This document shows, piece after piece, positions 3,870 through 35,653 of a stretch of DNA of 64,000 nucleotides. Positions within the stretch are counted from its first letter, which is position 1. Each line of letters starts with the position of its first letter. The position numbers and the translations under genes are program-made. The notes below the pieces were generated by a model that did no database searches, was not told the DNA's origin, and was given only the letters and a program-made list of their open reading frames with translations. Source of the DNA: Mycobacterium paragordonae. GTDB lineage: Bacteria; Actinomycetota; Actinomycetes; Mycobacteriales; Mycobacteriaceae. Location: positions 5,828,001-5,892,000 of the forward strand of contig NZ_CP025546.1 of assembly GCF_003614435.1 (NCBI RefSeq), read 5' to 3'.

Positions 3870-3953
3870 CGGATTTAAGAACAATACTCGCAATTAAAGC
3901 GTCAAATGCGCCGTTACCAGCACATATATGGCGGCGGCGGGAGGATGGTTCAC

Positions 3954-5051
3954 GTGATCGAAAACGCGGACGGGACGCGCACGCCGCTCATCGACGCCAG
4001 CGTGCACATCTTCTTCCCCAGCAACAAAGACCTGCGCAGCTTCCTCCGCGAGCCCTTCAAGAGCCGCGGCTTCCCCGACTACGAGATGGACTGGTACGGC
4101 GCCCCGGGCAGCGAGTACGCGCCCAATACCGAGGGACCCGAGCGCGGCCGCACTTACCCCGGTTCCGATCCGGATTTCGTTGCTGACGAGCTCTTTTCAA
4201 AGCGCGGCGTGGACATCGCGATCCTGCACCCGATGGGACGCGGCATCATGCCGGACCGCCACCTGGGCACCGCACTGCACGCCGCCCACAACGAGATGAT
4301 GGTGTCGCGCTGGCTCGAGCACGAGCAGCTTGGCGAACGGTTCCGCGGCACCATCCGGGTGAACCCGGACGACATCGCCGGTGCGCTGCGGGAAATCGAG
4401 AAATGGCGCGGACACCCGCGCGTGGTCCAGATCGGCATCCCGCTGCAGTCGCGAGAGCTCTACGGGAAGCCGCAGTTCTGGCCGCTGTGGGAAGCGGCGG
4501 CGGATGCGAATCTGCCGGTGGCCGTACATATCGAAGTCGGCTCCGGCGTCGCGTTCCCGCCGACACCGTCGGGAAACACGCGCACTTACGAGCAGTACGT
4601 CAGCTTCATGGCGCTGAACTACATCTATCACCTGATGAACATGATCGCCGAGGGCGTGTTCGAGCGCTTTCCCGGCGTGCGATTCGTCTGGGCCGACGGC
4701 GCCGCGGATTTCGTGACACCGTTCATCTGGCGGATGGACACGTTCGGGCGGCCGCACCTCGAGCAGACGCCGTGGGCGCCCCGGATCCCGAGCGACTATC
4801 TGCCCGGCCACGTGTATTTCATCCAGGGCGCCCTGGACGGGCCGGGTGACACCGATTTCGCCGGAGAGTGGTTCAGCTTCACCGGCAAGGACGACATGGT
4901 GATGTTCGGCTCGAGCTATCCGCACTGGCAGTGTGCTGATATCGGCAAGTTGCCCTCGGCGCTTTCCGACGCACAGCGCGAGAAGTTGTGTTGGCGCACC
5001 GCGGCCGATCTGTACGGCATAGACATCGCTGTCGGGTCGGGCGCACAGTAG
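3954..5051 (+). CDS. Amidohydrolase-2 family protein, catalytic Asp replaced (likely non-catalytic partner)
   Basis: This 365-residue TIM-barrel protein is of the ACMSD/amidohydrolase-2 type, whose members decarboxylate or hydrolyse small carboxylated rings using a divalent metal. The conserved C-terminal SSDYPHW element appears as GSSYPHW, so the Asp ligand/base is Ser near residue 321; the N-terminal metal motif is DASVH. The gene just downstream encodes a same-length relative that keeps the Asp. GTG 3954 is preferred because GGGAGG lies 9 bases upstream; ATG 3945 or 3906 would place the ribosome site too close or absent. First gene of an operon with the next three. Confidence 0.75.
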   Translation: MIENADGTRTPLIDASVHIFFPSNKDLRSFLREPFKSRGFPDYEMDWYGAPGSEYAPNTEGPERGRTYPGSDPDFVADELFSKRGVDIAILHPMGRGIMPDRHLGTALHAAHNEMMVSRWLEHEQLGERFRGTIRVNPDDIAGALREIEKWRGHPRVVQIGIPLQSRELYGKPQFWPLWEAAADANLPVAVHIEVGSGVAFPPTPSGNTRTYEQYVSFMALNYIYHLMNMIAEGVFERFPGVRFVWADGAADFVTPFIWRMDTFGRPHLEQTPWAPRIPSDYLPGHVYFIQGALDGPGDTDFAGEWFSFTGKDDMVMFGSSYPHWQCADIGKLPSALSDAQREKLCWRTAADLYGIDIAVGSGAQ

Positions 5052-5078: not shown

Positions 5079-6224
5079 ATGTCGTTGACCCATTCCCAGG
5101 AGCGGGCGCCGGCCGCCGAGCGCATAGCGGTCCGGTGCGTCGACTCGGATGTCCACCCGGCGCCCCGGCGCGGTGAGCTCGTTCAGTACATCCCCGAGCC
5201 TTGGCGCAGCCGCTATTTCCTCACCCGCAACGTCGGAGAACAGATCTACTACGACGCGCCCGACTATGCGCACAGCTACGCCATGCGGGTCGACACGTTC
5301 CCCTCCGACGGTGAATTCGCCTGCAGCGACCCGGATCTGGCCTTCAAGCAGCTGATCATGGAAGCGGGTTCCGACATCGCGATTCTGGAACCTGCCGCCT
5401 ACCCCGCCAGGTTGCCCGAAGCCCAGCACGCGATGGCCTGCGCACTCAACGACTGGCAGGCCAATCACTGGCTGGACAGCCACAACAACTGGCACGAACG
5501 GTGGCGGGGTTCCATCTGCGTCGCGATCGAGGAGCCGGAGGAGGCCGTTCGCGAGATCGAGCGCTGGGCCGGGCATCCCTACATGGCACAGATCCTGATC
5601 AAGGCCGAGCCCCGACCGTCATGGGGTCATCCCAAGTACGACCCGATCTGGGCGGCCGCCAGCAAGCACGACATCACCGTGAGCTGTCACCTGTCCCGCA
5701 GCCATTTCGACGAGCTGCCGATTCCTCCCGTGGGATTGCCCAGTTACAACCACGATTTCATGGTGACCTACTCGCTCCTGGCCGCAAACCAGGTGATGAG
5801 CCTGGTCTTCGACGGGGTTTTCGACCGGTTCCCGAAGCTGCGCATCGTGTTCGTGGAGCACGCCTTCAGCTGGATCCTGCCCCTGATGTGGCGGATGGAC
5901 TCAATCTACGAAGCACGCAAGTCGCGCGTCGAGATCAAGCGCAAGCCATCGGATTACGTCAAAGACCACATCAAGTTCACCACCCAGCCGCTGGACTATC
6001 CCGAGGACAAGACCGAACTGACCCGCGCCCTGGAATGGATGGAATGCGAGAAGATCCTGCTGTTCTCCTCGGATTACCCGCACTGGACCTTCGATGACCC
6101 GCGGTGGCTGGTCAAGCACCTGCCGAAGGCTGCGCGCGAAGCGGTGATGTTCAAGAACGGCATCGCGACCTACCACCTGCCGGAGACGGTCCCCGTCCTC
6201 GAGGGTCAGACCCGGGTGCACTGA
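5079..6224 (+). CDS. Amidohydrolase-2 family enzyme (ACMSD-like)
   Basis: This 381-residue amidohydrolase-2 enzyme has an N-terminal CVDSDVHPAP (residues 18-27) that supplies metal ligands and a C-terminal SSDYPHW with the catalytic Asp at residue 332, both intact. Long His-containing strands (TVSCHLSRSHF near 206) complete the site. Likely reactions are non-oxidative decarboxylation or hydrolysis of a cyclic intermediate. AAAAGGAG lies 7 bases before the ATG. The next gene starts one base after its stop. Together with the degenerate paralogue upstream it may form a heteromer; that is inference. Confidence 0.8.
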   Translation: MSLTHSQERAPAAERIAVRCVDSDVHPAPRRGELVQYIPEPWRSRYFLTRNVGEQIYYDAPDYAHSYAMRVDTFPSDGEFACSDPDLAFKQLIMEAGSDIAILEPAAYPARLPEAQHAMACALNDWQANHWLDSHNNWHERWRGSICVAIEEPEEAVREIERWAGHPYMAQILIKAEPRPSWGHPKYDPIWAAASKHDITVSCHLSRSHFDELPIPPVGLPSYNHDFMVTYSLLAANQVMSLVFDGVFDRFPKLRIVFVEHAFSWILPLMWRMDSIYEARKSRVEIKRKPSDYVKDHIKFTTQPLDYPEDKTELTRALEWMECEKILLFSSDYPHWTFDDPRWLVKHLPKAAREAVMFKNGIATYHLPETVPVLEGQTRVH

Positions 6225-13480: not shown

Positions 13481-13495
13481 GATAACGTAATTCTC
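13481..13495. promoter_or_regulatory. Candidate operator, GAGAAT-N3-ATTCTC type (2 mismatches)
   Basis: GATAAC-GTA-ATTCTC has one perfect half-site and one with two changes. It lies in the divergent gap between the enoyl-CoA hydratase and DUF35-thiolase genes, 36 bases before the latter start, where one bound repressor could control both directions. Confidence 0.35.
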
Positions 13496-19236: not shown

Positions 19237-19251
19237 GAGAATGCGCCTCTC
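19237..19251. promoter_or_regulatory. Candidate operator, GAGAAT-N3-ATTCTC type (2 mismatches)
   Basis: GAGAAT-GCG-CCTCTC keeps one perfect half-site. It lies 29 bases upstream of the preferred P450 start and just downstream of an AT-rich stretch (19252-19275) likely to hold the promoter. Confidence 0.35.
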
Positions 19252-19303: not shown

Positions 19304-19807
19304 TCAGGCCGGCAGCAGATCCGCCGCCACCGATCGGCACGGCATCAGTCCGCTGCGGAACGTCTCGACGGTCCCGACCGAGTCGACCGGCACCGCCGCG
19401 GCGGCCAGCGCCTTCGCCTTGAAGGTCTGGGCGGCCATGCTCAACCGGTGCTGGACGCGCCCCACACTGTCGTCGAGTTCGGCCGGCCAGGTGGTACCCC
19501 AGAGCGTGACTTCGGTGACGCCGTGGTCAAGGGCCTGCAGCACTCCGGTCCGCACCCGCGGGTCCGAGCCGAGCAGGTCAGCGGCCGCGGCCAGGGCCTG
19601 CGGACGCGGATGAGTTCCCAGCGACGCCAGCACCGATTCGAGGTCGAGGGTTCTGGCCCCCAGGATGTGCAGCGGCCGGTCGTCCGGGTGGTCGGTGAGC
19701 AGCACCGTGACATCCCAGCCCGCCATGGAACGGTCGAAAAGCCATCCGCCGGCGAACTTCACCACGTCGACCACGCTGGACGCCACGACGTCGAGCCGGT
19801 ACCTCAT
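19304..19807 (-). CDS. Conserved hypothetical protein coupled to a TetR regulator
   Basis: I do not recognise this 167-residue protein. The N-terminus MRYRLDVVASSVVDVVKFAG suggests a strand-helix start, and the middle (WDVTVLLTDHPDDRPLHILGA) has alternating strands and helices. There is no signal peptide or membrane span. Its ATG at 19807 overlaps the stop of the TetR gene by 4 bases (ATGA), so it is translated with that regulator and may sense or process the same ligand. A longer frame to 19906 overlaps the TetR gene and is not needed. Confidence 0.65.
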   Translation of the reverse strand: MRYRLDVVASSVVDVVKFAGGWLFDRSMAGWDVTVLLTDHPDDRPLHILGARTLDLESVLASLGTHPRPQALAAAADLLGSDPRVRTGVLQALDHGVTEVTLWGTTWPAELDDSVGRVQHRLSMAAQTFKAKALAAAAVPVDSVGTVETFRSGLMPCRSVAADLLPA

Positions 19808-20418
19808 GTCGCGCTCGTCGGACTGGGTGGCGAGAAGTCTCGCGCCAGCGTCTCCGCGTACTCCTTGAACACCTCGGTCAGGGGTATCGAAGGATCGAGT
19901 AGCCATGTCATTTCCATTCCGTGGACGAAGGCGAGAATCTCTACTGCCTTGACGGCGGGGTCTATGTCGGCGCGGTACCGGCCGGCGGCCTGGCCCCGGC
20001 GGATGCCGGCGGCGACGATCTCGGTCGCGGCGCGCTGCCGGTTCACCAGGCGGTCGTGCAGCGGAGCGTCGGGCGCGAGGTTTTCGACCAGCAGCACTGT
20101 GAAGGTGCCGACCAACTCGGGTTGCCGGTTGAAGCGGTCGGCGACCTGGGCGATCTCGCCGAGCAGATCGCCGCCGCGGTCCGAGTGCGTGTCGTCGTCG
20201 AGGTCGCGCTCATCCAGCACCGCGTGCAGCAGCTGCTCCTTGGACTCGAAATGGTGGAGCAGACCCGCGGGCGTCACCCCCGCCTCGCGGGCGATCTGCG
20301 CGAGGGTGGTGCTGCGCCAGCCGTTGCGCGATAACAAGCGCTGCGCCACTTCAAGAATCCGCTGCTTGCGGTCTTCGCCTTTGGCGAGAAGCGTCTCGTA
20401 GGGCCGTACGTCGGACAC
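19804..20418 (-). CDS. TetR/AcrR family transcriptional regulator
   Basis: This 204-residue TetR-type repressor has an N-terminal DNA-binding domain at residues 18-62 with the recognition region AREAGVTPAGLLHHFESKEQLL. The C-terminal helical domain binds an unknown ligand. The start is GTG 20418. A perfect 10-base inverted repeat sits 30 bases upstream (20448-20479), most likely its own operator. The co-translated hypothetical gene follows. Its targets other than itself are not evident in the window. Confidence 0.88.
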   Translation of the reverse strand: MSDVRPYETLLAKGEDRKQRILEVAQRLLSRNGWRSTTLAQIAREAGVTPAGLLHHFESKEQLLHAVLDERDLDDDTHSDRGGDLLGEIAQVADRFNRQPELVGTFTVLLVENLAPDAPLHDRLVNRQRAATEIVAAGIRRGQAAGRYRADIDPAVKAVEILAFVHGMEMTWLLDPSIPLTEVFKEYAETLARDFSPPSPTSAT

Positions 20419-24405: not shown

Positions 24406-24501
24406 GGGTGTTCCCTTCTCATCTGATCCACCTGATCGGGTGTATTGAGCAGGCTTCAAGCCGCAGAGCAGAGCCCACCTGCGCCGAGCTCTCTATAGGT
24501 T

Positions 24502-24657: not shown

Positions 24658-24672
24658 GAGAATATGATTCTC
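24658..24672. promoter_or_regulatory. Operator palindrome GAGAAT-N3-ATTCTC (perfect)
   Basis: GAGAAT-ATG-ATTCTC lies 38 bases before the ATG of the CMD-Rieske operon and covers a TATGAT -10 hexamer. The identical arms and spacing recur at 31725 and 32581. The TetR-type protein encoded at 31796, which has the same site in its own promoter, is the prime candidate to bind it. Confidence 0.7.
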
Positions 24673-24709
24673 TCTTAGTGAGAGGATTGCACGTGAGAAG
24701 GACCACCCG

Positions 24710-25246
24710 ATGCGTTTACCGCCGCTGCCCGCCGACCAATGGGACGAGGCTGTCGACGGCGCGCTGGCCGTCATGTTGCCCCCGGAACGCCGCAATCCGC
24801 GCGATGCCTCCAACGTGTTGTCGACTCTGGTCAACCACCCGGTGCTGACCAAGGCGTTCCTCAAGTTCAATGTGCACCTCTTGTTCTCGTCCACCCTGCC
24901 GCCGCGGATCCGCGAGTTGGCCATTCTGCGGGTCGCGCAACGTCGTGAGTGCGCCTACGAGTGGACTCACCATGTCGATCTCGCCAAGCGAGAGGGCGTG
25001 ACCGATGCCGAGATCGACGCGGTCCGCCGGGGCGACGGCGGGTTCGACGAATTCGAGCGTGCGGTGGTGGCCGGCGTCGACGAACTCGACGAGAAGTCCC
25101 AATTGTCCGACGCGACCTGGGCGGCGCTCGGTACGCACATGGACGACCGGCAGCGGATGGACTACGTCTTCACGGTCGGCTCTTACATCATGCTGGCCAT
25201 GGCGCTCAACACTTTTGGCGTTCAGCTCGAACACGAGGAGAGGTAA
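24710..25246 (+). CDS. Carboxymuconolactone decarboxylase (CMD)/AhpD-like protein
   Basis: This 178-residue CMD-fold protein has the signature ELAILRVAQRRECAYEWTHHV near residues 69-89 with a single conserved Cys and paired His, in place of the CxxC of AhpD. Close relatives are often encoded beside oxygenases and are thought to act on lactones or peroxides, but few have been tested. It is the first gene of a seven-gene operon; the Rieske oxygenase start follows after 2 bases with GAGGAG in this gene's 3' end. Confidence 0.8.
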   Translation: MRLPPLPADQWDEAVDGALAVMLPPERRNPRDASNVLSTLVNHPVLTKAFLKFNVHLLFSSTLPPRIRELAILRVAQRRECAYEWTHHVDLAKREGVTDAEIDAVRRGDGGFDEFERAVVAGVDELDEKSQLSDATWAALGTHMDDRQRMDYVFTVGSYIMLAMALNTFGVQLEHEER

Positions 25247-25248
25247 CA

Positions 25249-26544
25249 GTGGCCCACTTCCCCAAACCAGCCGCCGGAAGCTGGACGAAGAATTATCCCG
25301 AACTGGGGACCGCACCAGTCGATTACAGCGATTCGATCGATCCCGCGTTCTTCGAGGCCGAGCGCAACGCGATCTTCAAGCGCACGTGGCTCAACGTCGG
25401 CCGGGTCGAGAGATTGCCGCGCACCGGCAGCTACTTCACCAAGGAGCTGCCCTCGGCCGGCAAAGGGATGTCGGTGATCGTCGTCAAAACCAAGGACGGA
25501 TCCGTCAAGGCGTTCCACAACGTCTGCCGGCACCGCGGAAACAAGCTGGTGTGGAACGATTTTCCGAACGAGGAAACGTCCGGCACCTGCCGGCAGTTCA
25601 CCTGCAAGTACCACGCCTGGCGGTACAGCCTGGACGGTGACCTGACCTTCGTCCAGCAGGAGGACGAGTTCTTCGACCTCGACAAGGGCGACTACGGGCT
25701 GGTGCCGGTGCGCTGCGAGGTGTGGGAAGGCTTCATCTTCATCAACTTCGACCAGGACGCGCAGCCGCTGGTGGACTATCTGGGCCCGATGGGCAAGGGC
25801 ATCGAGGGTTATCCCTTCCAAGAGATGACCGAAACCTATTCCTACCGAGCCGAAGTCGGGAGCAACTGGAAGCTGTTCATCGACGCGTTCGCCGAGTTCT
25901 ACCACGCTCCGGTGCTGCATCAGGGGCAGTACACCAAAGAAGAAGCCGCCAAGATCATGAAGTACGGCTTCGAGGCGCTGCACTACGAGCTGGCCAGCCC
26001 GCACGGAATGATCTCGACCTGGGGCGGCCAGGCCCCGCCGGTGGACATGAGCATGGTCAAGCCGATGGACCAGGTCCTGCGCAGCGGCCTGTTCGGCCCC
26101 TGGGACAAGCCGGAGGTCATCGCGAACCTCGACGCACTGCCGCCGGGTGTCAACCCGAAGAAGGTCAAGCAGTGGGGCGTCGACTCCTGGCACTTCTACC
26201 CGAACTTCATGCTGCTGATCTGGGAACCGGGCTGGTTCCTGACCTACCACTACTGGCCGACCGCCGTCGACAAACACATCTTCGAGTGCACGCTGTACTT
26301 CGTGCCGCCGCGAAATGCCCGTGAACGCCTGGCGCAGGAGCTGGCGGCGGTGACGTTCAAGGAGTACGCGCTGCAGGACGCCAACACGCTGGAGGCGACC
26401 CAGACCATGATCGGCACCAAGGTGGTCAACGACTTCCCGTTGTGCGACCAGGAAATCCTGCTCCGCCATCTGCACAAGGTGACCGGCGACTACGTAGCCG
26501 ACTTCGCGAAGGAGAGCCAGAACAATGGCAAAGTTACCGTCTGA
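25249..26544 (+). CDS. Rieske non-heme iron oxygenase, catalytic subunit
   Basis: This 431-residue oxygenase has a Rieske [2Fe-2S] centre C93/H95 (CRHRGN) and C119/H122 (CKYHAW), and a mononuclear iron site in DAFAEFYHAPVLH: D212, E216, H219, H224. Asn206-Trp207 precede the bridging Asp as in ring-hydroxylating oxygenases. It hydroxylates an aromatic or alicyclic substrate with electrons from a reductase and ferredoxin; neither is in this operon, so the Rieske ferredoxin at 6226 or the NuoF-ferredoxin pair at 8012-9579 may serve. GTG 25249 has GAGAGG close upstream. No classical small beta subunit is encoded. Confidence 0.9.
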   Translation: MAHFPKPAAGSWTKNYPELGTAPVDYSDSIDPAFFEAERNAIFKRTWLNVGRVERLPRTGSYFTKELPSAGKGMSVIVVKTKDGSVKAFHNVCRHRGNKLVWNDFPNEETSGTCRQFTCKYHAWRYSLDGDLTFVQQEDEFFDLDKGDYGLVPVRCEVWEGFIFINFDQDAQPLVDYLGPMGKGIEGYPFQEMTETYSYRAEVGSNWKLFIDAFAEFYHAPVLHQGQYTKEEAAKIMKYGFEALHYELASPHGMISTWGGQAPPVDMSMVKPMDQVLRSGLFGPWDKPEVIANLDALPPGVNPKKVKQWGVDSWHFYPNFMLLIWEPGWFLTYHYWPTAVDKHIFECTLYFVPPRNARERLAQELAAVTFKEYALQDANTLEATQTMIGTKVVNDFPLCDQEILLRHLHKVTGDYVADFAKESQNNGKVTV

Positions 26545-26851
26545 ATTCGCCGACCTGGAACCGTATCTCGGCTGGGACCTGGCCACCGAGCCCGAGCGTT
26601 ACGCCAAGCGCCTGGCCTCCACGATGGGTCAGATGCAAGAGTTCTACGACGTTGCCTTCCCGCACCTGAACGACGTCATCGCCTACTGTGACAAGTACCC
26701 ATTGGACGATCTTCCCGAGGACGCACGCACGCTCATGCACCTGATGCAGTCGCTGGTGATGGTGTCGTTTCCGATCGAGGCGTGGAAGCAGCCCCGGGTT
26801 CCCGACAGCGGCGCGGCGTGGGTGGAGTGCATCAGGGAACCGGTGATCTGA
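26525..26851 (+). CDS. Small unrecognised protein coupled to the Rieske oxygenase
   Basis: I do not recognise this 108-residue protein. It is mostly helical, acidic, with aromatic-rich segments (EPYLGWDLATEPERYAKRL, MQEFYDVAFPHLND) and no metal motif, signal or membrane span. It overlaps the end of the oxygenase gene by 20 bases and has an ATG with AAGGAG inside that gene, so it is made together with the oxygenase. It is far shorter than a classical dioxygenase beta subunit (about 170-190). It may be an accessory or stabilising subunit; that is inference from position only. Confidence 0.7.
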   Translation: MAKLPSEFADLEPYLGWDLATEPERYAKRLASTMGQMQEFYDVAFPHLNDVIAYCDKYPLDDLPEDARTLMHLMQSLVMVSFPIEAWKQPRVPDSGAAWVECIREPVI

Positions 26852-26854
26852 CGG

Positions 26855-28063
26855 GTGTTGACGCTCAAGGCAGCTGGGCTACTCGACGTCGACGCCGGCG
26901 AGATCGTCACACCGGGCATCATCCGGATCGACGGCGACCGGATCGTGGGGATCGGTGGTGAGCCCGAGGGCGAACTGATCGATCTGGGCAACCACATCCT
27001 GATGCCCGGGTTGATGGACATGGAGGTCAACCTGCTGATGGGCGGGCGCGGCGAGAAGCCGGGCCTGTCCCAGGTGCAGGACGACCCGCCGACCCGGGTG
27101 CTGCGCGCCGTGGGCAATGCGCGGCGCACCCTGCGCGCCGGGTTCACCACGGTGCGCAACCTGGGCCTGTTCGTCAAAACCGGCGGCTACCTGCTCGACG
27201 TCGCGCTAGGTAAGGCCATCGACGCGGGCTGGATCGACGGACCCCGCGTTGTGCCTGCCGGACATGCGATTACGCCCACCGGTGGGCACCTGGATCCGAC
27301 GATGTTCGCGGCGTTCGCCCCGCACGTACTGGACCTCACGATCGAGGAGGGCATCGCCAACGGGGTCGACGAGATCCGCCGCGCGGTGCGCTACCAGATC
27401 AAGCACGGCGCCCAGCTGATCAAGGTGTGCTGCTCCGGCGGCGTCATGTCACTGACCGGACCGCCTGGCGCCCAGCACTATTCGGATGACGAGCTGCGCG
27501 CCATCGTCGACGAGGCACACCGGCGCGGGCTGCGCGTGGCAGCACATACGCACGGCGCCGACGCGGTCAAGCACGCGGTGGCGGCCGGCATCGACTGCAT
27601 CGAGCACGGCTTCCTGATCGACGACGAGGCCATCGCGCTGATGGTCGAGAACGACACCTTCCTGGTGAGCACCCGGCGGTTGGCCGAGGGCATGGACGTC
27701 TCGCATGCACCACCCGAACTGCAGGCCAAGGCCGCCGAGATGTTTCCGAAGTCGCGCACCTCGATCCTGGCCGCCTACCACGCCGGAGTGAAGATCGCCG
27801 TCGGCACCGACGCGCCGGCAATACCGCACGGCCGCAACGCCGATGAACTCGTCACCCTGGTGGAGTGGGGGTTGCCGCCGCTGGCGGTGTTGCGCGCGGC
27901 GACCGTGACGGCCGCGGACCTGATCAACTCCACCGAGCTGGGACGGCTGGCCGAGGGGATGCTGGCCGACATCATCGCGGTGCCCGGAAATCCGTTGGAA
28001 GACATCACCGTTACCCGCAACGTGAGCTTTGTCATGAAAGGCGGCAAGGTCTTTGTCAACTAA
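26855..28063 (+). CDS. Amidohydrolase (imidazolonepropionase-like) lacking the N-terminal HxH
   Basis: This 402-residue amidohydrolase-1-type protein has a beta-sandwich N-terminus, then ILMPGLMDMEVNLL where the family has PGLIDxHxH: both metal His are replaced (E57, N59). The rest of the site is present: the carboxylated Lys in AQLIKVCCSGG, His in AAHTHGADA, His in CIEHGFLID, and Asp in VGTDAPAIPHG. Relatives hydrolyse prolyl dipeptides, ureido or lactam rings. The loss implies a mononuclear site or different chemistry. GTG 26855 follows the previous stop by 3 bases. Confidence 0.8.
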   Translation: MLTLKAAGLLDVDAGEIVTPGIIRIDGDRIVGIGGEPEGELIDLGNHILMPGLMDMEVNLLMGGRGEKPGLSQVQDDPPTRVLRAVGNARRTLRAGFTTVRNLGLFVKTGGYLLDVALGKAIDAGWIDGPRVVPAGHAITPTGGHLDPTMFAAFAPHVLDLTIEEGIANGVDEIRRAVRYQIKHGAQLIKVCCSGGVMSLTGPPGAQHYSDDELRAIVDEAHRRGLRVAAHTHGADAVKHAVAAGIDCIEHGFLIDDEAIALMVENDTFLVSTRRLAEGMDVSHAPPELQAKAAEMFPKSRTSILAAYHAGVKIAVGTDAPAIPHGRNADELVTLVEWGLPPLAVLRAATVTAADLINSTELGRLAEGMLADIIAVPGNPLEDITVTRNVSFVMKGGKVFVN

Positions 28064-28487
28064 CCAGCCAACCAGAACTGACGACCTGGTCGAGATCCAG
28101 CAACTGCTCGCGCGGTACGCCGTCACCATCACCCAGGGCGACATCGAGGGACTGGTCGGTGTGTTCACGCCGGACGGCACCTACAGCGCGTTCGGCGACA
28201 CCTACACACTCGACCGGTTCCCGGAACTGGTCGCCGCCGCGCCCAAGGGCCTGTTCATGACTGGCACCTCGCTGGTGGAAAATCTCGACGGCGACACGGC
28301 GACCGGCACCCAACCGCTGTGCTTCATCGAACACTCCGCGCACGACATGCGCATCGGTTACTACCGCGACACCTATTTGCGCACCGCCGACGGGTGGCGA
28401 CTGAAAACCCGTGCCATGACCTTCATCCGGCGCAGCGGCGTGCATGATTCCGGGCGTCCGCATGCCGTCGGGCGCCCCTCCCCGTGA
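28053..28487 (+). CDS. SnoaL-like/NTF2-fold protein
   Basis: This 144-residue cone-shaped NTF2-fold protein of the SnoaL type has VEIQQLLARYAVTITQGDIEGLVGVFTPDGTY at residues 13-44 and C-terminal strands IGYYRDTYLRTADGWRLKTR. The fold includes polyketide cyclases, ketosteroid isomerase-like enzymes and small dehydratases. The start is TTG 28053, overlapping the amidohydrolase stop by 11 bases; its own stop overlaps the next start (GTGA). It may isomerise or dehydrate an intermediate. Confidence 0.75.
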   Translation: MSTNQPTRTDDLVEIQQLLARYAVTITQGDIEGLVGVFTPDGTYSAFGDTYTLDRFPELVAAAPKGLFMTGTSLVENLDGDTATGTQPLCFIEHSAHDMRIGYYRDTYLRTADGWRLKTRAMTFIRRSGVHDSGRPHAVGRPSP

Positions 28488-29572
28488 ATGTCGACGAGTT
28501 CCGGACTGGGTTGTGCGGGTGGCTCGACGAACATGACCTGACGCCGGGACCCGACCATTCGCTGCAGGGGCATATGCGGCAGTTCGCCCGGGTCAGCGAA
28601 GCGCTGTACGACGCCGGCTGGATGCGCTACGGGTGGCCCACCTCGGTGGGTGGACTCGGTGGACCCGCCCTGTTGCGCGCAATCGTCGGCGAGGAGGTGG
28701 TGGGCCGGCGGCTGGCCGAACCCGGTCCCTACTCGATGCTGGAGGTGCTGGCGCCCACCATGATCGATTACGCGCCGGCCGCATTGGCGGCCGAAATGGT
28801 GCCGCGGCTGCTCAGCGGCCGCGAGCAATGGTGCCAGGGCTTCTCCGAACCGGGATCCGGCAGCGATCTGGCGTCCTTGACGACCCGGGCGGTCCAGGAC
28901 GGCGACAACTGGATTGTCAACGGGCAGAAGGTCTGGACCAGTTTTGCGCAGTTCTCCACCCGCTGCGTCCTGCTCACCCGTACCGCGCCGGGTCATGACG
29001 GCATCACCGCGTTCTTCGTCGACCTGGACACGCCGGGTATCACGGTCCGCCCGTTGCGCACCATGCACGGCGTCGACGAGTTCTGCGAGGTGTACTACGA
29101 CGACGTGGTGATCCCGTCCAGCCGCATGCTCGGCAAGCCCGGGGATGGCTGGCAGCTGGCGATGGATCTGTTGCCGTATGAACGGTCGACCTGTTTCTGG
29201 CAGCGAATCGCCTACCTGTACTCGAGGTTCGACGCATTGATCGCCGAGGCGCCTGACCCGGACGAATCCGCCTTGGGCGCAGCCTATCTGGCGCTGCACA
29301 CGCTGCGCTGCCGGTCCCGTGCCACCCAGCACCGGCTGGCCGACGGGGCACGACTCGGACCGGACACCTCGATCGACAAGGTGTTGCTGGCCGGTGCCGA
29401 ACAACGGCTCTACGACACCGTCCGCGACCTGCTGCCCGGCACGCTCGAACTCGACGACTCAGCCTGGCGTCCGGAGTACCTCTACTCGCGCGCGGCGACC
29501 ATCTACGGCGGCACCGCCGAGATACAGCGCAACATCATCGCCCGTCGGCTGCTCGACCTCGGGAGGGAGTGA
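28484..29572 (+). CDS. Acyl-CoA dehydrogenase, larger subunit of a probable heteromer
   Basis: This 362-residue protein has SEPGSGSDLASLTTRAVQDG near 121-140, NWIVNGQKVWTSFAQ near 143-157, and ends in the ACAD signature YGGTAEIQRNIIARRLLDLG. It is followed at once by a second, shorter dehydrogenase gene, the arrangement seen for alpha2beta2 enzymes such as FadE28-FadE29 and ChsE1-ChsE2 in actinobacterial steroid catabolism, which act on bulky polycyclic CoA esters. GTG 28484 overlaps the SnoaL stop (GTGA). Confidence 0.85.
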   Translation: MNVDEFRTGLCGWLDEHDLTPGPDHSLQGHMRQFARVSEALYDAGWMRYGWPTSVGGLGGPALLRAIVGEEVVGRRLAEPGPYSMLEVLAPTMIDYAPAALAAEMVPRLLSGREQWCQGFSEPGSGSDLASLTTRAVQDGDNWIVNGQKVWTSFAQFSTRCVLLTRTAPGHDGITAFFVDLDTPGITVRPLRTMHGVDEFCEVYYDDVVIPSSRMLGKPGDGWQLAMDLLPYERSTCFWQRIAYLYSRFDALIAEAPDPDESALGAAYLALHTLRCRSRATQHRLADGARLGPDTSIDKVLLAGAEQRLYDTVRDLLPGTLELDDSAWRPEYLYSRAATIYGGTAEIQRNIIARRLLDLGRE

Positions 29573-29573
29573 C

Positions 29574-30365
29574 ATGGACCCCGAGCTGGCGCTGTTGGCC
29601 GAATCATTGCGGACGGCGATGACGGCCTCGCCGTCCGGCGCCAAGCTCGACGCCGCCCTGGCTGAGCTCGGCTGGCTTGACATGCTCGACGAAATACCCT
29701 CGACCGCAATCCCTCTGGTGTTCCGGCTGCTCGGCGAAACCGGTGCGCATGCATCCGTTTTGAACGACGTGGTGTTGCGCGCCGCCGGGCGGGACGGCGG
29801 AGGCACGGCGCCGCTGCCGTATGCCGGCGGTTCCTGGGTGGTCTGGGAGCGTACCGACACTGACGCTTCGGCGATGGACGAGGATCTCCCCTTGCACCGT
29901 GTCGCGGCCGGGGACGTTGTTCCGCTCAGCGCCGGACGGCAGGCGGTGGGCTGGTGGCTCGTCGGCGCCAGCCGGGCCATGCTGTCGCTGGCTCGCAGCC
30001 ACGCGCTGGACCGGGTCCAATTCGGCCGCCCCATCGGATCTTTCCAGGCGGTGCGGCACCGGCTGGCCGAGACGCTGGTCGCCATCGAGGGCGCCGAGGC
30101 CACCCTGCAGGCCGCCACCGACCAGCCCGACGACCTTGCCTGTCTGTTGGCCAAGGCCGCGGCCGGCCAGGCCGCGCTCACCGCCGCCCGCCACTGCCAG
30201 CAGGTGCTCGGCGGCATCGGCTTCACCGCCGAACATCAATTGCATCACCACGTCAAACGGGCACTGGTGCTCGACGGATTGCTCGGCAGCTCGAGGGAAC
30301 TCACCCGGGAAGCGGGAGCGCATCTTCGTGCCGTGGGCTCGGCGCCCCGGCTCGTCCACCTCTAG
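29574..30365 (+). CDS. Short acyl-CoA dehydrogenase-like protein, second subunit of a heteromer
   Basis: Only 263 residues, against about 380 for a complete enzyme. The C-terminal helical domain is intact (SHALDRVQFGRPIGSFQAVRH near 143-163 and CQQVLGGIGFTAEHQLHHHVKRA near 207-229), while the N-terminal helices and middle beta domain are reduced. Such short partners complete the flavin site of the larger subunit in FadE heterotetramers. GGGAGGGAG lies just before ATG 29574, one base past the previous stop. It is the last gene of the operon and converges on another acyl-CoA dehydrogenase gene. Confidence 0.8.
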   Translation: MDPELALLAESLRTAMTASPSGAKLDAALAELGWLDMLDEIPSTAIPLVFRLLGETGAHASVLNDVVLRAAGRDGGGTAPLPYAGGSWVVWERTDTDASAMDEDLPLHRVAAGDVVPLSAGRQAVGWWLVGASRAMLSLARSHALDRVQFGRPIGSFQAVRHRLAETLVAIEGAEATLQAATDQPDDLACLLAKAAAGQAALTAARHCQQVLGGIGFTAEHQLHHHVKRALVLDGLLGSSRELTREAGAHLRAVGSAPRLVHL

Positions 30366-30383
30366 GCGCCGCTCACCAACTCT

Positions 30384-30460
30384 GGCGCCGAGCGTGAATC
30401 ACCCGACGCGACACGCCTCTCAGACTCAAGTCATGGCGTCGTGAAATTCCCACTCGGGCA
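30384..30460. terminator. Palindromic repeat between convergent acyl-CoA dehydrogenase genes
   Basis: GGCGCCGAGCGTGAATCACC on the left pairs imperfectly with GGCGTCGTGAAATTCCCACTCGG on the right. It carries the GCCGAGCGTGAA core of the repeat family also seen at 16036, 17654 and 47822. Its place between two gene ends suits a two-way terminator. Confidence 0.45.
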
Positions 30461-30475
30461 GGAGGATTGCGGAGC

Positions 30476-31651
30476 CTAGTTGCGCGGCATGCCGAGTACC
30501 CGCTCGGCGATGATGTTGCGCTGAATCTCCGAGGTCCCGCCGGCGATGGTGCCGGCAAAGCTGCGGGCATAGCGGTCGAACCAGCTGCCGTAGTGCGCGT
30601 CCAGGTTCAGCGGCGCGAATGGCGCGGTGATCGCCGGATGAATCAGACCCTCGCCGCCCTTGGCGTTCAGGGCATCTTCGGAGGCGCGCTGGACCGCCTC
30701 CGAGCCGAGCAGCTTCAGCACCGACTGCCCGGGCACATCCTCCTCACCGCGCGCGGCTTTGGCCAGCGTCACCGAACCAAGCAGCCGCATCGCCCAGGCA
30801 TCCATCACCAGGGTCGCGTAGCGATCCCGCTCCAATGCTCCGGTGGGCGTGAAATCGGTTGTCTGCTGGTCCAATAGGTTGGCGTAGTCGAGCCACAGCA
30901 TGGCCCGCTCGTGCCCGAGCGCGCCGGTCGCCACCCGCCACCCTCCGTCGAGCTCGCCGACCAGATTCTCGGCGGGCACCCGGGCATCGGTGAAAAACAC
31001 CTCGTTGAATTCGACGTCGTCGTGGTCGCACACCGAGGCGAACGGTCGTCGCACCACCCCCGGGGTGTCCGTCGGAATCAGTAACACACTGATCCCCTTG
31101 TGTTTTGGGACGTCGGGGTTGGTGCGCACGAATGTCAGCAGCACGTCGGCGTCGTGTGCACCCGAGGTCCACACCTTCTGGCCGTTCACCACGAAGTCGT
31201 CGCCGTCACGCACCGCTTTCGTCTTCAAGGAGGCCAGATCCGAACCGGCGCCCGGTTCGCTCATACCCAACGACGCGGTCATCTCGGCTCGCAGAATCGG
31301 CACCGCCCAGCGCTGCTTCTGCTCCGGAGATCCGAATGACAACAGCGACGCCGCGATGATCCCGACGCCCTGTGGATTGAAACTGCGGTAGATCCGGCGC
31401 CGCGCCATCTCGTCGGCGTGCACGTACTGCTGCAACAGGGTCGCGTTGCGGCCGCCGAACTCCGGCGGATTGCCCGGCAGCAGCCAACCGTTGTCGAACA
31501 ACGTCCGCTGCCAGCGAGCCGCCCACTCCGGCACGTGGGAGCACGAAGTCGGCCGCAGCACGCCCTCAGCCTCATCCGGCAGGTGCTCGTCGAGAAATGC
31601 GACGAATTCCGCTCGGAAAGCCTCGACATCGGCATCAAAAGTCAGCTGCAC
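30476..31651 (-). CDS. Acyl-CoA dehydrogenase
   Basis: This 391-residue acyl-CoA dehydrogenase has LGMSEPGAGSDLASLKTKAV near 127-146, FVVNGQKVWTSGAHDAD near 152-168, and C-terminal GTIAGGTSEIQRNIIAERVLG near 366-386. The N-terminus (VQLTFDADVEAFRAEF) resembles FadE members of steroid and terpenoid pathways. GTG 31651 has GAGGAG five bases before it. The gene diverges from the TetR gene, with a perfect GAGAAT-N3-ATTCTC palindrome 74 bases upstream, so it is a likely direct target. Confidence 0.9.
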   Translation of the reverse strand: MQLTFDADVEAFRAEFVAFLDEHLPDEAEGVLRPTSCSHVPEWAARWQRTLFDNGWLLPGNPPEFGGRNATLLQQYVHADEMARRRIYRSFNPQGVGIIAASLLSFGSPEQKQRWAVPILRAEMTASLGMSEPGAGSDLASLKTKAVRDGDDFVVNGQKVWTSGAHDADVLLTFVRTNPDVPKHKGISVLLIPTDTPGVVRRPFASVCDHDDVEFNEVFFTDARVPAENLVGELDGGWRVATGALGHERAMLWLDYANLLDQQTTDFTPTGALERDRYATLVMDAWAMRLLGSVTLAKAARGEEDVPGQSVLKLLGSEAVQRASEDALNAKGGEGLIHPAITAPFAPLNLDAHYGSWFDRYARSFAGTIAGGTSEIQRNIIAERVLGMPRN

Positions 31652-31724
31652 AAAATCTCCTCGCGGCCTCTCGCGGCTCCCGGGTCTGCACTCTCATGAA
31701 TGTGCTTCCCAAACACCCGTGCAA

Positions 31725-31739
31725 GAGAATAGTATTCTC
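31725..31739. promoter_or_regulatory. Operator palindrome GAGAAT-N3-ATTCTC (perfect), shared divergent promoter
   Basis: GAGAAT-AGT-ATTCTC is perfect and contains TAGTAT (31730-31735), a good rightward -10. It lies between an acyl-CoA dehydrogenase gene (-) and a TetR gene (+), the classic place for a TetR autoregulatory operator. Confidence 0.75.
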
Positions 31740-31795
31740 GTCGTGAGGAAGTTACAATCTCCTAGACATCGTCCGTGAGGAGGTCGAGCGCAGCG

Positions 31796-32515
31796 ATGGC
31801 CCGACGTTCTCCGGTACAGTCCAACCATGTTCTCTCCTCGCGGCAATCTCCCGAGCCGCCCGTGACCAGCCCGGGCGAAGAGCCGGCTTGGAAACAGCGG
31901 GCCGTCGAGCGATCCATCAAGACCGCGAAACTGCGTGCGGCGCAACGCGTCCAGCGCTTCCTGGATGCCGCGCAGGCCATCATCATCGAAAAGGGCAGCA
32001 CGGACTTCACCGTGCAGGAGGTCGTCGACCGGTCCCGCCAGTCGCTGCGCAGCTTCTACCTGCAGTTCGATGGCAAGCACGAATTGCTGCTGGCCCTGTT
32101 CGAGGACGCGCTGAGCCGGTCGGCCGATCAGATCAGGGCCGCCACGGAAAGCCACACCGACGCGCTCGAGCGGCTCAAGGTGGCGGTGGAACTGCTGTAC
32201 GAGGCTTCCCGCCCGGACCCGACGGCCCGGCGACCGTTGTTCACCGACTTTGCGCCCCGGTTGCTGGTTACGCATCCCGCTGAGGTCAAGGTGGCCCATG
32301 CGCCGCTGCTGGCTTTGCTCACCGAGCTGATGGAAGCCGCCTACGAAGCGGGCAAGCTGCGCGCCGGCGTCAACCCGAAGCGGATGGCCGCCATGACCAT
32401 GCAGACGGTGATGTTCATCGCACAGTCCAGCGGCGGCTCCGACGACGCGACGGTGCACCCGATCAGCGCCGACGAGGTGTGGGACTTCTGCTCACGCGGA
32501 TTCGCAGGCGGCTAG
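31796..32515 (+). CDS. TetR family transcriptional regulator, candidate master repressor of the region
   Basis: This 239-residue TetR-type regulator has an extended 45-residue N-terminus before the DNA-binding domain (residues 53-98). The recognition part is VQEVVDRSRQSLRSFYLQFDGKHELL, ending in the YLQF motif of this fold. ATG 31796 is preferred; GTG 31775 is in frame but lacks a ribosome site, and GAGGAGG lies 11 bases before the ATG. The perfect palindrome at 31725 in its promoter recurs ahead of two other catabolic operons, so it probably controls itself, the divergent dehydrogenase and those operons. Its ligand is presumably a CoA ester or pathway substrate. Confidence 0.85.
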   Translation: MARRSPVQSNHVLSSRQSPEPPVTSPGEEPAWKQRAVERSIKTAKLRAAQRVQRFLDAAQAIIIEKGSTDFTVQEVVDRSRQSLRSFYLQFDGKHELLLALFEDALSRSADQIRAATESHTDALERLKVAVELLYEASRPDPTARRPLFTDFAPRLLVTHPAEVKVAHAPLLALLTELMEAAYEAGKLRAGVNPKRMAAMTMQTVMFIAQSSGGSDDATVHPISADEVWDFCSRGFAGG

Positions 32516-32580
32516 CATTCGGGCCGCTTTGCGGTCCACCAATGTCCTGACGAGCGAATATCGCACCCCGGCGCCAATAT

Positions 32581-32595
32581 GAGAATGCTATTCTC
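32581..32595. promoter_or_regulatory. Operator palindrome GAGAAT-N3-ATTCTC (perfect)
   Basis: GAGAAT-GCT-ATTCTC is perfect and lies in the 219-base gap ahead of the P450-SDR-SDR operon, 140 bases before the P450 start. The distance implies a long 5' leader or an alternative promoter nearer the gene. The arms match 24658 and 31725 exactly. Confidence 0.7.
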
Positions 32596-32734: not shown

Positions 32735-33937
32735 GTGACAGTAAGCGCAGCCAGCGACGTCTATTTCGACCCGTATGATGTCGAGCTCAACGCTGACCCC
32801 TACCCCATGTTCCGGCGGCTGCGCGAGGAATCGCCGCTGTATTACAACGAGCAGCACGACTTTTACGCCCTCAGCCGCTTCGCCGACGTCGACAACGCCA
32901 TCGTCGACTACCAGACGTTCAGCTCCGCCCGCGGGGCGATCCTCGAGCTGATCCGGGCCAATATCGACATGCCACCGGGCGTGCTCATCTTCGAGGATCC
33001 GCCGGTCCACGACATCCACCGTAAGTTGTTGTCGCGCATGTTCACTCCGCGCAAGATCAGCGACCTGGAGCCCAAGATCCGGGAGTTCTGCGCGCGCAGC
33101 CTGGATCCGCTGGTCGACACCGGCAGGTTCGACTTCGTCAACGACCTCGGCGCCCAGATGCCGATGCGGGTGATCGGCATGCTGCTGGGAGTCCCGGAGG
33201 AAGATCAAGAAGCCGCACGCGATTTCGCCAACGCGCAGATGCGCACCGAGGCGGGTAAGCCGATGGAATTCTCGGCCGAAACCATGCTGAACGGCGAGTT
33301 TTTCGGTCAGTACATCGACTGGCGCGCGCAACATCCGTCCAACGACATCATGACCGAGTTGCTCAACGCGGAGTTCGAGGACGAGACCGGAACGGTCCGG
33401 CGCATGCGACGCGACGAACTGCTCACCTACGTCACCGTGGTCTCCGGCGCCGGCAACGAGACCACCACCCGGCTGATCGGTTGGGCGGGAAAGGTTTTGG
33501 CGGAACACCCGGATCAGCGTCGGGCGCTGGTGGAGAATCCGGCGTTGATTCCCGCGGCCGTCGAAGAATTGTTGCGGTACGAGCCGCCGGCGCCGCACGT
33601 CGCCCGGTACGTCACCCGCGACGTCGACTACTACGGCCAACGGGTCCCCGAAGGCAGCGTCATGATGATGCTGATCGGCGCGGCGAACCGCGACCATCGT
33701 CAATTCCCGCCTGACGGAGACGTTTTCGACATCCGCCGCGAGCCACGTCAACACCTCACGTTCAGCGTCGGCACCCACTATTGTCTCGGCTCGGCGCTGG
33801 CCCGCCTGGAGGGCCGGATCGCGCTCGAAGAGATTCTGAAGCGCTTCCCCGAATGGGATGTCGACCTAGCCGAGGCCACGCTTTCCCCGACGTCGACCGT
33901 GCGGGGTTGGGAATCCATGCCGGCCGTCTTCGGCTGA
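32735..33937 (+). CDS. Cytochrome P450
   Basis: This 400-residue P450 has I-helix VSGAGNETTTR near 231-241, ExxR in EELLRYEPP near 274-282, and heme loop TFSVGTHYCLGSALAR near 338-353. The heme loop FSVGTHYC differs from the FGxGxHxC norm at the third position (Val for Gly/Ala), seen in some mycobacterial CYPs. No ferredoxin follows it, unlike the P450s at 16249, 17931 and 43361, so it must use a carrier encoded elsewhere. The start is GTG 32735. Two SDR genes follow and probably oxidise its product. Confidence 0.9.
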   Translation: MTVSAASDVYFDPYDVELNADPYPMFRRLREESPLYYNEQHDFYALSRFADVDNAIVDYQTFSSARGAILELIRANIDMPPGVLIFEDPPVHDIHRKLLSRMFTPRKISDLEPKIREFCARSLDPLVDTGRFDFVNDLGAQMPMRVIGMLLGVPEEDQEAARDFANAQMRTEAGKPMEFSAETMLNGEFFGQYIDWRAQHPSNDIMTELLNAEFEDETGTVRRMRRDELLTYVTVVSGAGNETTTRLIGWAGKVLAEHPDQRRALVENPALIPAAVEELLRYEPPAPHVARYVTRDVDYYGQRVPEGSVMMMLIGAANRDHRQFPPDGDVFDIRREPRQHLTFSVGTHYCLGSALARLEGRIALEEILKRFPEWDVDLAEATLSPTSTVRGWESMPAVFG

Positions 33938-33967: not shown

Positions 33968-34807
33968 ATGACTGGACGTGTAGAAGGTAAGGTCGCCTTC
34001 GTCACCGGGGCGGCGCGGGGCCAGGGGCGCAGCCACGCGGTGCGATTAGCCCAGGAAGGCGCCGACATCATCGCCGTCGACGTATGCAAGCCGATCGTCA
34101 AGAACACCACCATCCCGGCGTCGACACCCGAGGATCTGGCCGAGACCGCAGATCTCGTCAAGGGCCTCAACCGACGGATCGTCACAGCAGAGGTCGATGT
34201 ACGCGACTTCGACGCGCTCAAGGCCGCCGTGGACAGCGGCGTCGAGCAACTGGGGCGACTGGACATCATCGTTGCCAACGCCGGCATCGGCAACGGTGGC
34301 GACACCCTGGACAAGACCAGCGAATACGACTGGCAGGAGATGATCGACGTCAACCTGTCCAGCGTCTGGAAGTCGGTGAAAGCCGGCGTGCCGCATATCC
34401 TGGCGGGCCGCAACGGTGGCTCGATCATCCTCACCAGCTCGGTCGGCGGGATCAAGGCCTACCCGCACTGCGGCAGCTATGTGGCCGCCAAGCACGGCGT
34501 GGTGGGCATCATGCGCTCCTTCGCGGTTGAACTGGGGCAGCACATGATTCGGGTCAACTCCGTGCATCCCACGCATGTCGCCACCCCGATGCTGCATAAC
34601 GAGGGCACCTTCAAGATGTTCCGGCCGGACCTGGAGAATCCCGGACCGGACGACATGGCCCCGATCTGCCAGATGTTCCACACGCTGCCGATCCCGTGGG
34701 TCGAGGCGCAGGACGTCAGCAACGCCGTGCTGTTCTTCGCCTCCGACGAGTCTCGGTACATCACCGGCGTCACCCTGCCGGTAGATGCGGGGAGCTGCCT
34801 CAAATAG
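33968..34807 (+). CDS. Mycofactocin-coupled SDR family oxidoreductase
   Basis: This 279-residue SDR has VAFVTGAARGQGRSHAVRLA near 10-29, IIAVDVC near 35-41, an insertion of about 25 residues after it (TIPASTPEDLAETADLVKGL), and YVAAK near 178-182. This insertion and the GQGRSHA motif mark the mycofactocin-associated family (carveol-dehydrogenase-like), whose NAD stays bound and is reoxidised by mycofactocin. Substrates are typically secondary alcohols of terpenoids. AGGAGGG precedes the ATG. It follows the P450 by 30 bases and probably oxidises the alcohol that enzyme makes. Confidence 0.88.
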   Translation: MTGRVEGKVAFVTGAARGQGRSHAVRLAQEGADIIAVDVCKPIVKNTTIPASTPEDLAETADLVKGLNRRIVTAEVDVRDFDALKAAVDSGVEQLGRLDIIVANAGIGNGGDTLDKTSEYDWQEMIDVNLSSVWKSVKAGVPHILAGRNGGSIILTSSVGGIKAYPHCGSYVAAKHGVVGIMRSFAVELGQHMIRVNSVHPTHVATPMLHNEGTFKMFRPDLENPGPDDMAPICQMFHTLPIPWVEAQDVSNAVLFFASDESRYITGVTLPVDAGSCLK

Positions 34808-34816: not shown

Positions 34817-35653
34817 ATGGACGGATTCGAGGGACGCGGAGCGGTCATCACCGGCGGCGCGAGCGGTATCGGCCTGGCCACCGCCACCGAGTTGGCCGGA
34901 CGCGGGGCCCGGGTGGTGCTCGCTGACGTCGACCAACCCGGCCTGGAGCTAGCGGTCGCGCATTTGCGTGGCCAGGGTTTTGACGCCCACGGCGTGATGT
35001 GCGACGTCCGGCATTTCGAAGAGGTGGCGCGCCTCGCGGACAAGGCCTTCCGGTTGCTCGGCCAGGTGGACGTCGTGTTCAGCAACGCCGGCATCGTGGT
35101 CGCCGGCCCGATCGCCGAAATGACGCACGAGGACTGGCGCTGGGTCATCGACATCGACTTGTGGGGTTCGATACACGCCGTCGAAGCGTTCCTGCCGCGA
35201 CTGCTCAAGCAGGGCACCGGCGGCCACATCGCGTTCACCGCCTCCTTCGCCGGGTTGGTGCCCAACGCCGGTCTCGGGGCGTACGGGGTCGCCAAGTATG
35301 GCGTGGTGAGCCTGGCCGAAACGCTGGCGCGAGAGGTCAAGGGCAATGGCATCGGAGTCTCGGTGCTGTGCCCGATGGTCGTCGAGACCAAGCTGCTGTC
35401 CAACTCCGAACGGATCCGGGGCGCGGACTACGGCCTGGCATCTACACCGGACGTCACAGGTTCGCTCGGACCGCTGCCCGCGCAGGACGAGACGCTGGGC
35501 GTCGCGGATCTCGCCCGCCTGACCGCCGATGCGATCCTGGCCAACCGCTTGTATGTGTTGCCGCACGAGGCGTCCCGGGCGTCGATCCGACGCCGGTTCG
35601 ACCGCATCGACCGGACTTTCGACGAACAGGCCGCCGAGGGCTGGCGCCACTGA
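34817..35653 (+). CDS. Short-chain dehydrogenase/reductase
   Basis: This 278-residue classical SDR has ITGGASGIG near 11-19, SNAGI near 89-93 (Ser replacing the first Asn of NNAG), and YGVAK near 155-159 with a Ser (ASFAG) upstream. The C-terminal region is longer than usual (RRRFDRIDRTFDEQAAEG) and lacks VDGG, as in mycobacterial SDRs of the Rv1144/Rv1928 style, though I make no orthology claim. It starts 9 bases after the mycofactocin-type SDR and ends the operon, converging on another SDR. Confidence 0.8.
   Translation: MDGFEGRGAVITGGASGIGLATATELAGRGARVVLADVDQPGLELAVAHLRGQGFDAHGVMCDVRHFEEVARLADKAFRLLGQVDVVFSNAGIVVAGPIAEMTHEDWRWVIDIDLWGSIHAVEAFLPRLLKQGTGGHIAFTASFAGLVPNAGLGAYGVAKYGVVSLAETLAREVKGNGIGVSVLCPMVVETKLLSNSERIRGADYGLASTPDVTGSLGPLPAQDETLGVADLARLTADAILANRLYVLPHEASRASIRRRFDRIDRTFDEQAAEGWRH

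Follow-up and report, generated by a model that had tools for sequence, protein, structure and literature searches.

The closest described system is that of KstR (Rv3574), a TetR repressor of the cholesterol regulon for which, according to the available text of its description, the promoter of its own gene carries a palindrome conserved from mycobacteria to Nocardia, and there are 16 and 31 other instances of the motif before lipid-catabolism genes in two species, respectively (PMC1995591). Mce3R of M. tuberculosis is described, likewise in the available part of the source, as a TetR-like repressor of lipid genes with a double TetR motif and a non-palindromic target (PMC11667970). Eleven TetR motifs of mycobacteria, located between conserved TetR genes and their divergent neighbours, were predicted by Balhana and co-workers in 2015 (PMC4482099, available in part), and the island MmGI-1 of M. 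massiliense holds, according to the accessible text, an Mce operon, a cytochrome P450, several TetR genes, acyl-CoA dehydrogenases and thiolases, with many proteins resembling those of the M. avium complex (PMC4263727). Here, a stretch of 64,000 bases from Mycobacterium paragordonae (contig NZ_CP025546.1, positions 5,828,001 to 5,892,000; hereafter the window) was analysed, in which the palindrome GAGAATnnnATTCTC stands before a TetR-family gene, TetR1, and before catabolic genes. The palindrome, GAGAAT-RNY-ATTCTC in its refined form, is very probably the operator of TetR1, which would be an autoregulated repressor controlling a dispersed catabolic regulon.

The full KstR site, TAGAAC-N2-GTTCTA, resembles AGAAT-N3-ATTCT of the present palindrome, with the AGAA half in common, but it is 14 bp long with a spacer of 2 and an AAC/GTT core, against 15 bp, a spacer of 3 and AAT/ATT here, and the KstR operator as worded in the available text, TnnAACnnGTTnnA, is not matched by GAGAATnnnATTCTC (PMC1995591). 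The identification of TetR1 as KstR, FasR or FadR was rejected by the curated protein models, with scores of 19.8 bits (NF033703, cut-off 280), 33.9 bits (NF053731, cut-off 330) and 26.9 bits (NF053878, cut-off 200), respectively, and ScbR was likewise rejected on its curated cut-off; with the fatty acid regulators FasR and FadR, TetR1 has the superfamily in common, and its DNA-binding half matches. The TetR_N helix-turn-helix was recognized in TetR1 (PF00440, 31.3 bits, cut-off 24), and a conserved palindrome at its own gene, as is usual for operators of the family, is present as a predicted binding site. Only one TetR_N stretch was found in its 239 amino acids, as against the two modules given for Mce3R in the accessible text. 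KstR2 has AnCAAGnnCTTGnT as its own operator, from which the palindrome differs by eye, and no model named KstR2 was among the matches of TetR1. In the preliminary description, which had been made from the sequence of the window, the motif was said not to be known from KstR, KstR2 or other named mycobacterial regulators. The approach of Balhana and co-workers was the same as ours; the regulators in the available part of their table carry M. tuberculosis gene numbers, the comparison was made without motif logos, and an overlap is conceivable, with the letters GAGAAT absent from the available text (PMC4482099). MmGI-1 is similar in gene content and differs in that no operator is described in the accessible part (PMC4263727). 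In a literature search whose coverage left subscription papers mostly outside, the motif strings gave no match, and among the papers listed by word searches no title or shown abstract described the regulon. TetR1 seems to work like KstR without being KstR.

Three exact copies of GAGAATnnnATTCTC are present in the window (Table 1), with the spacers ATG, AGT and GCT, respectively, where a first-order Markov model built on the window, whose GC content is 66.7%, predicts 0.001. Under the same model 0.116 copies are expected in the 7.22-Mb home genome (7,224,251 bases, 5 contigs; the window is C1:5828001-5892000, and seven-digit site positions are contig coordinates), in which 7 exact and 6 one-mismatch copies were found, and the reversed pattern gave no match there at up to one mismatch. 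At up to two mismatches the window holds 6 matches, against a mean of 0.73 and a maximum of 4 in 100 dinucleotide shuffles, none of which reached 6. The three palindromes with identical arms and spacing had been pointed out in the preliminary description together with the units behind them (CMD-Rieske, acyl-CoA dehydrogenase divergent from TetR, P450-SDR-SDR; CMD, carboxymuconolactone decarboxylase family protein; SDR, short-chain dehydrogenase/reductase); the copies are exactly as given, and the units were correctly named according to family scans. The genome-wide motif search that it proposed placed 10 of the 13 copies (6 of the 7 exact, 4 of the 6 one-mismatch) within 5798233-5914544, i.e., 116 kb around the window or 1.6% of the genome, and sites were found before catabolic genes. 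The copies at 5798233 and 5914530 overlap called open reading frames with doubtful starts, but when the genes behind these sites are aligned with their orthologues, the alignments start close to the palindrome. An origin of the palindrome by chance or as a repeated element is hardly credible and was rejected for the exact sites: two of the six window matches, with two mismatches each, could be chance, and the copy at 636434 lies inside an unrelated 2OG-Fe(II) oxygenase gene, but the counts far exceed expectation, the reversed-pattern control in the home genome and the control stretches inside target genes were empty, and in different genera the same genes keep the site although its flanks have diverged.

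Table 1. Sites and genes of the window, in window coordinates.
Feature	Position	Strand	Basis or remark
Operator GAGAATATGATTCTC, CMD-Rieske operon, 37 bases before CMD start	24658..24672		exact; putative
Operator GAGAATAGTATTCTC, between acyl-CoA dehydrogenase (-) and TetR1 (+)	31725..31739		exact; putative
Operator GAGAATGCTATTCTC, upstream of P450-SDR-SDR unit, 65 bases after TetR1	32581..32595		exact; putative
Operator GAGAATGTTATTATC, 1 mismatch, 36 bases before amidohydrolase pair	3855..3869		motif search; putative
Weak operator-like site, 2 mismatches, flanked by enoyl-CoA hydratase (-) and thiolase/OB-fold protein (+)	13481..13495		may be chance
Weak operator-like site, 2 mismatches, at start of P450 17931-19253 (-)	19237..19251		may be chance
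TetR1, proposed cognate regulator, true start maybe GTG 31862	31796..32515	+	PF00440, E 1.7e-7
-10-like TACAAT of TetR1, conserved, 13 bases 3' of operator	31753..31758	+	alignment of 101 upstream regions
Acyl-CoA dehydrogenase divergent from TetR1	30476..31651	-	Pfam
CMD	24710..25246	+	PF02627
Rieske ring-hydroxylating oxygenase alpha subunit, start approximate	25243..26544	+	PF00355, PF00848
Amidohydro_1 metal-dependent hydrolase	26855..28063	+	PF01979
SnoaL-like protein	28053..28487	+	PF13577
Acyl-CoA dehydrogenase-like protein, first of two	28484..29572	+	translation read by eye
Acyl-CoA dehydrogenase-like protein, second of two	29571..30365	+	PF00441
Cytochrome P450, nearest solved relative CYP130	32735..33937	+	PDB 2wgy, E 1e-69
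SDR, mycofactocin-coupled subfamily	33968..34807	+	TIGR03971, 385.4 bits, cut-off 300
SDR	34817..35653	+	NF004529, 552.8 bits, cut-off 338
Amidohydro_2 protein behind 3855 site	3906..5051	+	PF04909
Second Amidohydro_2 protein	5079..6224	+	PF04909
TetR2, rival regulator	19804..20418	-	PF00440; co-occurrence

The position of TetR1 directly behind one copy, which had been noticed in the window, is kept among relatives. When loci were fetched with nothing but the TetR1 protein and the best 80 of 379, all named, were read, an exact site had its first base 63-79 bp upstream of the TetR1 start in 79; the exception is L149 of M. tilburgii, and L163 (G089), with the same contig coordinates as L149, holds a decayed copy with three mismatches. 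The protein itself is 99% identical to that of a Mycobacterium gordonae strain. Other genera contributed 24 loci in 23 genomes, with TetR1 identities of 67-79%; the upstream site was exact in 20, had one mismatch in 1 and two mismatches in 1, and was missing in 2. A TetR1 paralogue of 57-59% identity in three genomes of one other genus is preceded by an exact site at 148-149 bp, and the one sequence inspected (57% identical) retains QSLRSFYL in the recognition helix. Second TetR1-like genes (57-63% identical) were observed in G487, G417, G499 and G510 of one other genus, an exact site preceding those of G417, G487 and G499. The 120 homologues listed, of 4,464, were all close relatives of TetR1, with no function beyond regulator names, and the matches to TetR1 in PDB were weak TetR relatives throughout (best E 5.4e-8) without a ligand clue.

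For the site consensus, 144 non-redundant sites picked for exact arms were used. The spacer, taken as free N3 in the preliminary description, was found to be constrained to R-N-Y (first spacer base A or G in 79% and T in 3%), and the information outside the 15-base site is at most 0.2 bits per position. The -10-like hexamer that had been seen within the palindrome is present, e.g., TATGAT at 24664-24669, but it is a product of arms and spacer: the spacers of CMD orthologues vary and few of them keep the hexamer. Of 104 extracted TetR1 upstream regions, the 101 that had an exact site with sufficient flank were aligned on it; their arms are therefore fixed by selection. At 13 bp beyond the TetR1 operator, AAGTTACAATCTC is conserved in mycobacteria and a mostly AAGTAATAGTCTC-like element elsewhere, which was read as the -10 region; in 20 regions with TetR1 of less than 82% identity, the flanks have diverged and this element is largely kept. 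Given the conserved -10-like box at this distance, the palindrome would cover the -35 region at TetR1, which suggests the layout of an autorepressor. In a side observation on 10 diverged TetR1 upstream regions (window 31812-31864), a TAnnGT box was found in 9 (all except L175) and GTGACCA at the same place in 8 (GTGACGA in L168), which suggests a second TetR1 promoter (TACAGT, 31815-31820) and GTG 31862 as the real start codon.

Conservation at the target promoters was determined with 40 genomes searched by protein, in which the CMD and the CoA ligase behind 5914530 were each found in 33 and 30 loci each were read; this test replaced an earlier CMD count of 17/17, which was biased by loci mostly fetched by motif. 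The site before CMD was exact in 25 and had one mismatch in 3 of the 30 loci, with its first base 31-58 bp before the start in these 28; the two loci without a site were those of G425 and of a 47% homologue in G468. Before the CoA ligase, 21 exact and 9 one-mismatch sites were found in 30 loci, and inside-gene control stretches of equal size gave 0 of 30 for each gene at up to one mismatch. The 32581 site is less well kept: among 37 named, TetR1-fetched loci holding a P450 at least 70% identical, a site within 260 bp upstream was exact in 15 and exact or near in 30 (28 and 54 of 70, respectively, in a broader count that includes repeated and distant loci). Upstream of this site, the GCGAATATCGC block (window 32554-32564) is kept exactly by 6 of the 18 P450 orthologues whose upstream regions were inspected, and upstream of the P450 homologue in L217 and L218 variant sites of the form GAGAA[TC]nnn[AG]TTCT[CT] are clustered, which suggests repeated weak operators there. 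In 15 further genomes, 68 of the 77 exact sites fetched by motif have a gene at least 50% identical to a home-region gene within 1.8 kb and the other 9 do not; for 60 of the 77, a gene related to one of the 15 home targets on the list was found at up to 600 bp.

The distribution of the sites was compared with that of TetR1 in 396 genomes of the genus (presumably Mycobacterium in the wide sense). For TetR1 and TetR2 the scores were computed on the 7-8 best candidates of each genome; full or nearly full rescoring of 20 genomes gave the same best E. An exact site was found in 319 of 324 genomes with TetR1 (E <1e-80) against 9 of 72 without it, six of the 9 having one copy, and the reversed control pattern was seen in 9 of the 396 genomes, with a single copy in each. 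In 80 of 141 genomes drawn outside the genus, among them all 23 in which TetR1 passed the same threshold, the exact site was present in 22 of these 23 and in 4 of 57 without TetR1, a set in which G438 has a weak relative (4.8e-30), and the reversed control in 0 of 80. TetR1-less members (10 genomes) of the TetR1-bearing genera g9, g11, g22 and g23 had no sites, except one genome with 1. The movement of the sites with the TetR of 31796, named as a check in the preliminary description, was thus observed both within the genus (319 with and 5 without a site, against 9 and 63) and outside it. In a side observation, G313 (4.6 Mb) and G356 (4.2 Mb) hold TetR1 only in pieces and have 0 and 1 exact sites, respectively, as if regulator and sites had decayed together.

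Several observations weigh against this assignment. The genomes are related, so that the co-occurrence counts are not independent and the Fisher value calculated for the 396 genomes overstates what a fair probability would be worth as evidence. Five genomes with TetR1 have no exact site; at TetR1, G056 and G178 have a one-mismatch site, G206 and G332 none at up to two mismatches, and G089 only the decayed copy. The diverged loci L164, L166, L167, L168, L171, L242 and L244 are without a site before TetR1. Residues 72-98, the helix-turn-helix and recognition region, are 97.7% identical on average in 32 diverged orthologues against 68.8% for residues 110-235, the ligand half, but this difference is usual for TetR proteins, and it is weak support for that reason. 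G148, G365 and G375, with 5-8 sites, show TetR2 and no strong TetR1, which may be a gap, as their assemblies are of 590-700 contigs each. TetR2 tracks the sites nearly as well (303 genomes with TetR2 have a site and 0 do not, against 25 and 68 without TetR2), and co-occurrence therefore cannot by itself single out TetR1.

It is accordingly to be considered that the sites are operators of TetR2, the last gene of an apparent amidohydrolase-acyl-CoA dehydrogenase-thiolase-TetR2 run (dehydrogenase and thiolase by eye), and that TetR1 is merely one target. All 303 genus genomes with TetR2 have a site, 14 of 16 tested TetR1 genomes with 0-2 exact sites are without TetR2 (G093 and G528 have it), and in G417, G487 and G499 of one genus TetR2 has an exact site at a distance of 183 bp. 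In the home genome, however, the TetR2 start has no site at up to two mismatches, sites are kept in 19 genus genomes where TetR1 but not TetR2 was detected (13 with 4-8 and 6 with 1-2, several of them fragmented), and TetR2 may simply mark the target genes. The two-contig genome G222 has 6 sites, and TetR2 was not found in its 19.5-kb cluster region; outside the genus, G425 and G510 have 6 and 4 sites, respectively, without TetR2. TetR2 as sole regulator was thus judged quite unlikely. A shared operator, at which TetR1 and TetR2 or another regulator would act as overlapping repressors or as a heteromer, appears just as improbable: both proteins track the sites and both adjoin a site in G487, G417 and G499, but the 13 genomes with 4-8 sites retain them with TetR1 and no detected TetR2. 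TetR1 was preferred to TetR2 because it adjoins a site nearly everywhere and because genomes lacking TetR2 keep the sites. The guess that the TetR at 31796 is the regulator is therefore strongly supported, though short of proof, by position, conservation and co-occurrence.

A further point on the unfavourable side is that the 32581 operator lies about 140 bp before the P450 gene, where its fit to a promoter is unclear. Since it stands upstream of a TTGACA kept in most orthologues inspected, and since the TetR family includes activators (the NCBIfam model of FasR is described as such), TetR1 might bind the sites and act as an activator at some promoters; this is rather unlikely, as both the position of the TetR1 operator over the expected -35 region and that of the CMD site close to the start fit repression better.

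Under the preferred reading, in which TetR1 represses from the palindrome, we infer from sequence the following course. A TetR1 dimer would bind one palindrome copy per promoter. Bound at its own promoter, with the operator at the -35 position 13 bp upstream of the conserved -10-like box, it should block RNA polymerase and so repress both itself and the divergent acyl-CoA dehydrogenase. The copies before CMD-Rieske, P450-SDR-SDR, amidohydrolase-CoA ligase, CoA ligase-acyl-CoA dehydrogenases, MeaB and others would make up one regulon, to which this genome contributes 7 exact sites and some 5 plausible ones with one mismatch. The set would be switched on when TetR1 is released by an intermediate of the pathway, probably an acyl-CoA thioester.

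The predicted members were collected from the genes behind each site of the home genome. CMD, the Rieske oxygenase, the Amidohydro_1 protein, SnoaL and acyl-CoA dehydrogenase-like proteins (one by eye) lie behind 24658, an Amidohydro_2 protein and a CoA ligase behind 5798233, a pair of acyl-CoA dehydrogenases behind 5825451, and a CoA ligase, an acyl-CoA dehydrogenase pair and an enoyl-CoA hydratase behind 5914530. The site at 5906832 is followed by a MeaB-like GTPase, with the large and small subunits of a B12 mutase nearby at 5918536 and 5918110, respectively. The sites at 5820634 and 5820810 have an aldehyde dehydrogenase-CoA transferase run on one side and an SDR on the other; on the same strand, past a 279-bp gap and one unscanned gene, follow an MlaE permease and two Mce proteins, for which control by the palindrome is possible. 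As side observations, these lipid-import genes (L016, G000:C1:5813579-5816731) adjoin the aldehyde dehydrogenase-CoA transferase run, and in G487 (L314) their relatives sit between two exact sites. An APH-like kinase lies behind 6529365, and at 6003632 there is an acyltransferase with an epimerase-like protein on the opposite side. The best reading of the regulon content is CoA ligases, acyl-CoA dehydrogenases, P450s, the Rieske oxygenase, amidohydrolases, a B12-mutase chaperone and possibly an Mce importer.

Searches against solved structures were done for the oxygenases. The P450 at 17931-19253 (-) is close to CYP150A6 from M. marinum (PDB 6dcd, E 7.8e-156). Two further P450s had no match at the thresholds used, the CYP130 and CYP150A6 matches gave no substrate, and the Rieske protein weakly matched many oxygenases. 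In a separate observation, a second conserved element, TTGAAAACTATCTTCTCGCGAAGCGAGAATCAACATCC (window 24500-24540), was found upstream of the amidohydrolase 23107-24411 (-), with its palindrome flanked, when the minus strand is read by eye, by a possible -35 (TTGATT) and -10 (TAGTTT); it is retained in G222 and in G026, in the latter between the amidohydrolase and TetR1, and is perhaps the operator of another regulator. The palindrome TTCTCGCgaaGCGAGAA (24512-24528) was considered as the mark of a second regulon, and the idea was set aside because its exact copy is the sole one in the genome and matches at up to two mismatches numbered 36 against 17 for the control.

The combination of regulator, site and target genes is found again in other mycobacteria and in related genera and defines a regulon that is apparently undescribed, and the region is a large catabolic gene set of non-tuberculous mycobacteria. 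The Mce genes nearby, the P450s, ligases, acyl-CoA dehydrogenases and B12 mutase point to a branched or polycyclic lipid, e.g., terpenoid or steroid-like, as the substrate. Tentatively, this may be a third KstR-like lipid regulon of Mycobacteriaceae, with an autorepressed TetR and its own fixed operator, in which Mce uptake, activation, oxidation of ring and side chain by P450s and the Rieske oxygenase, paired acyl-CoA dehydrogenases and a B12 acyl-CoA mutase would serve the use, by environmental and opportunistic mycobacteria, of a terpenoid or steroid-like lipid, branched or with a quaternary carbon, whose breakdown is undescribed. A defined operator and regulator would allow the members of the pathway to be listed without guessing from neighbourhood, the operator-TetR1 pair would provide a direct assay for the inducer, and a second TetR-operator pair, with a similar half-site and a spacer of 3 versus 2, could be set beside KstR.

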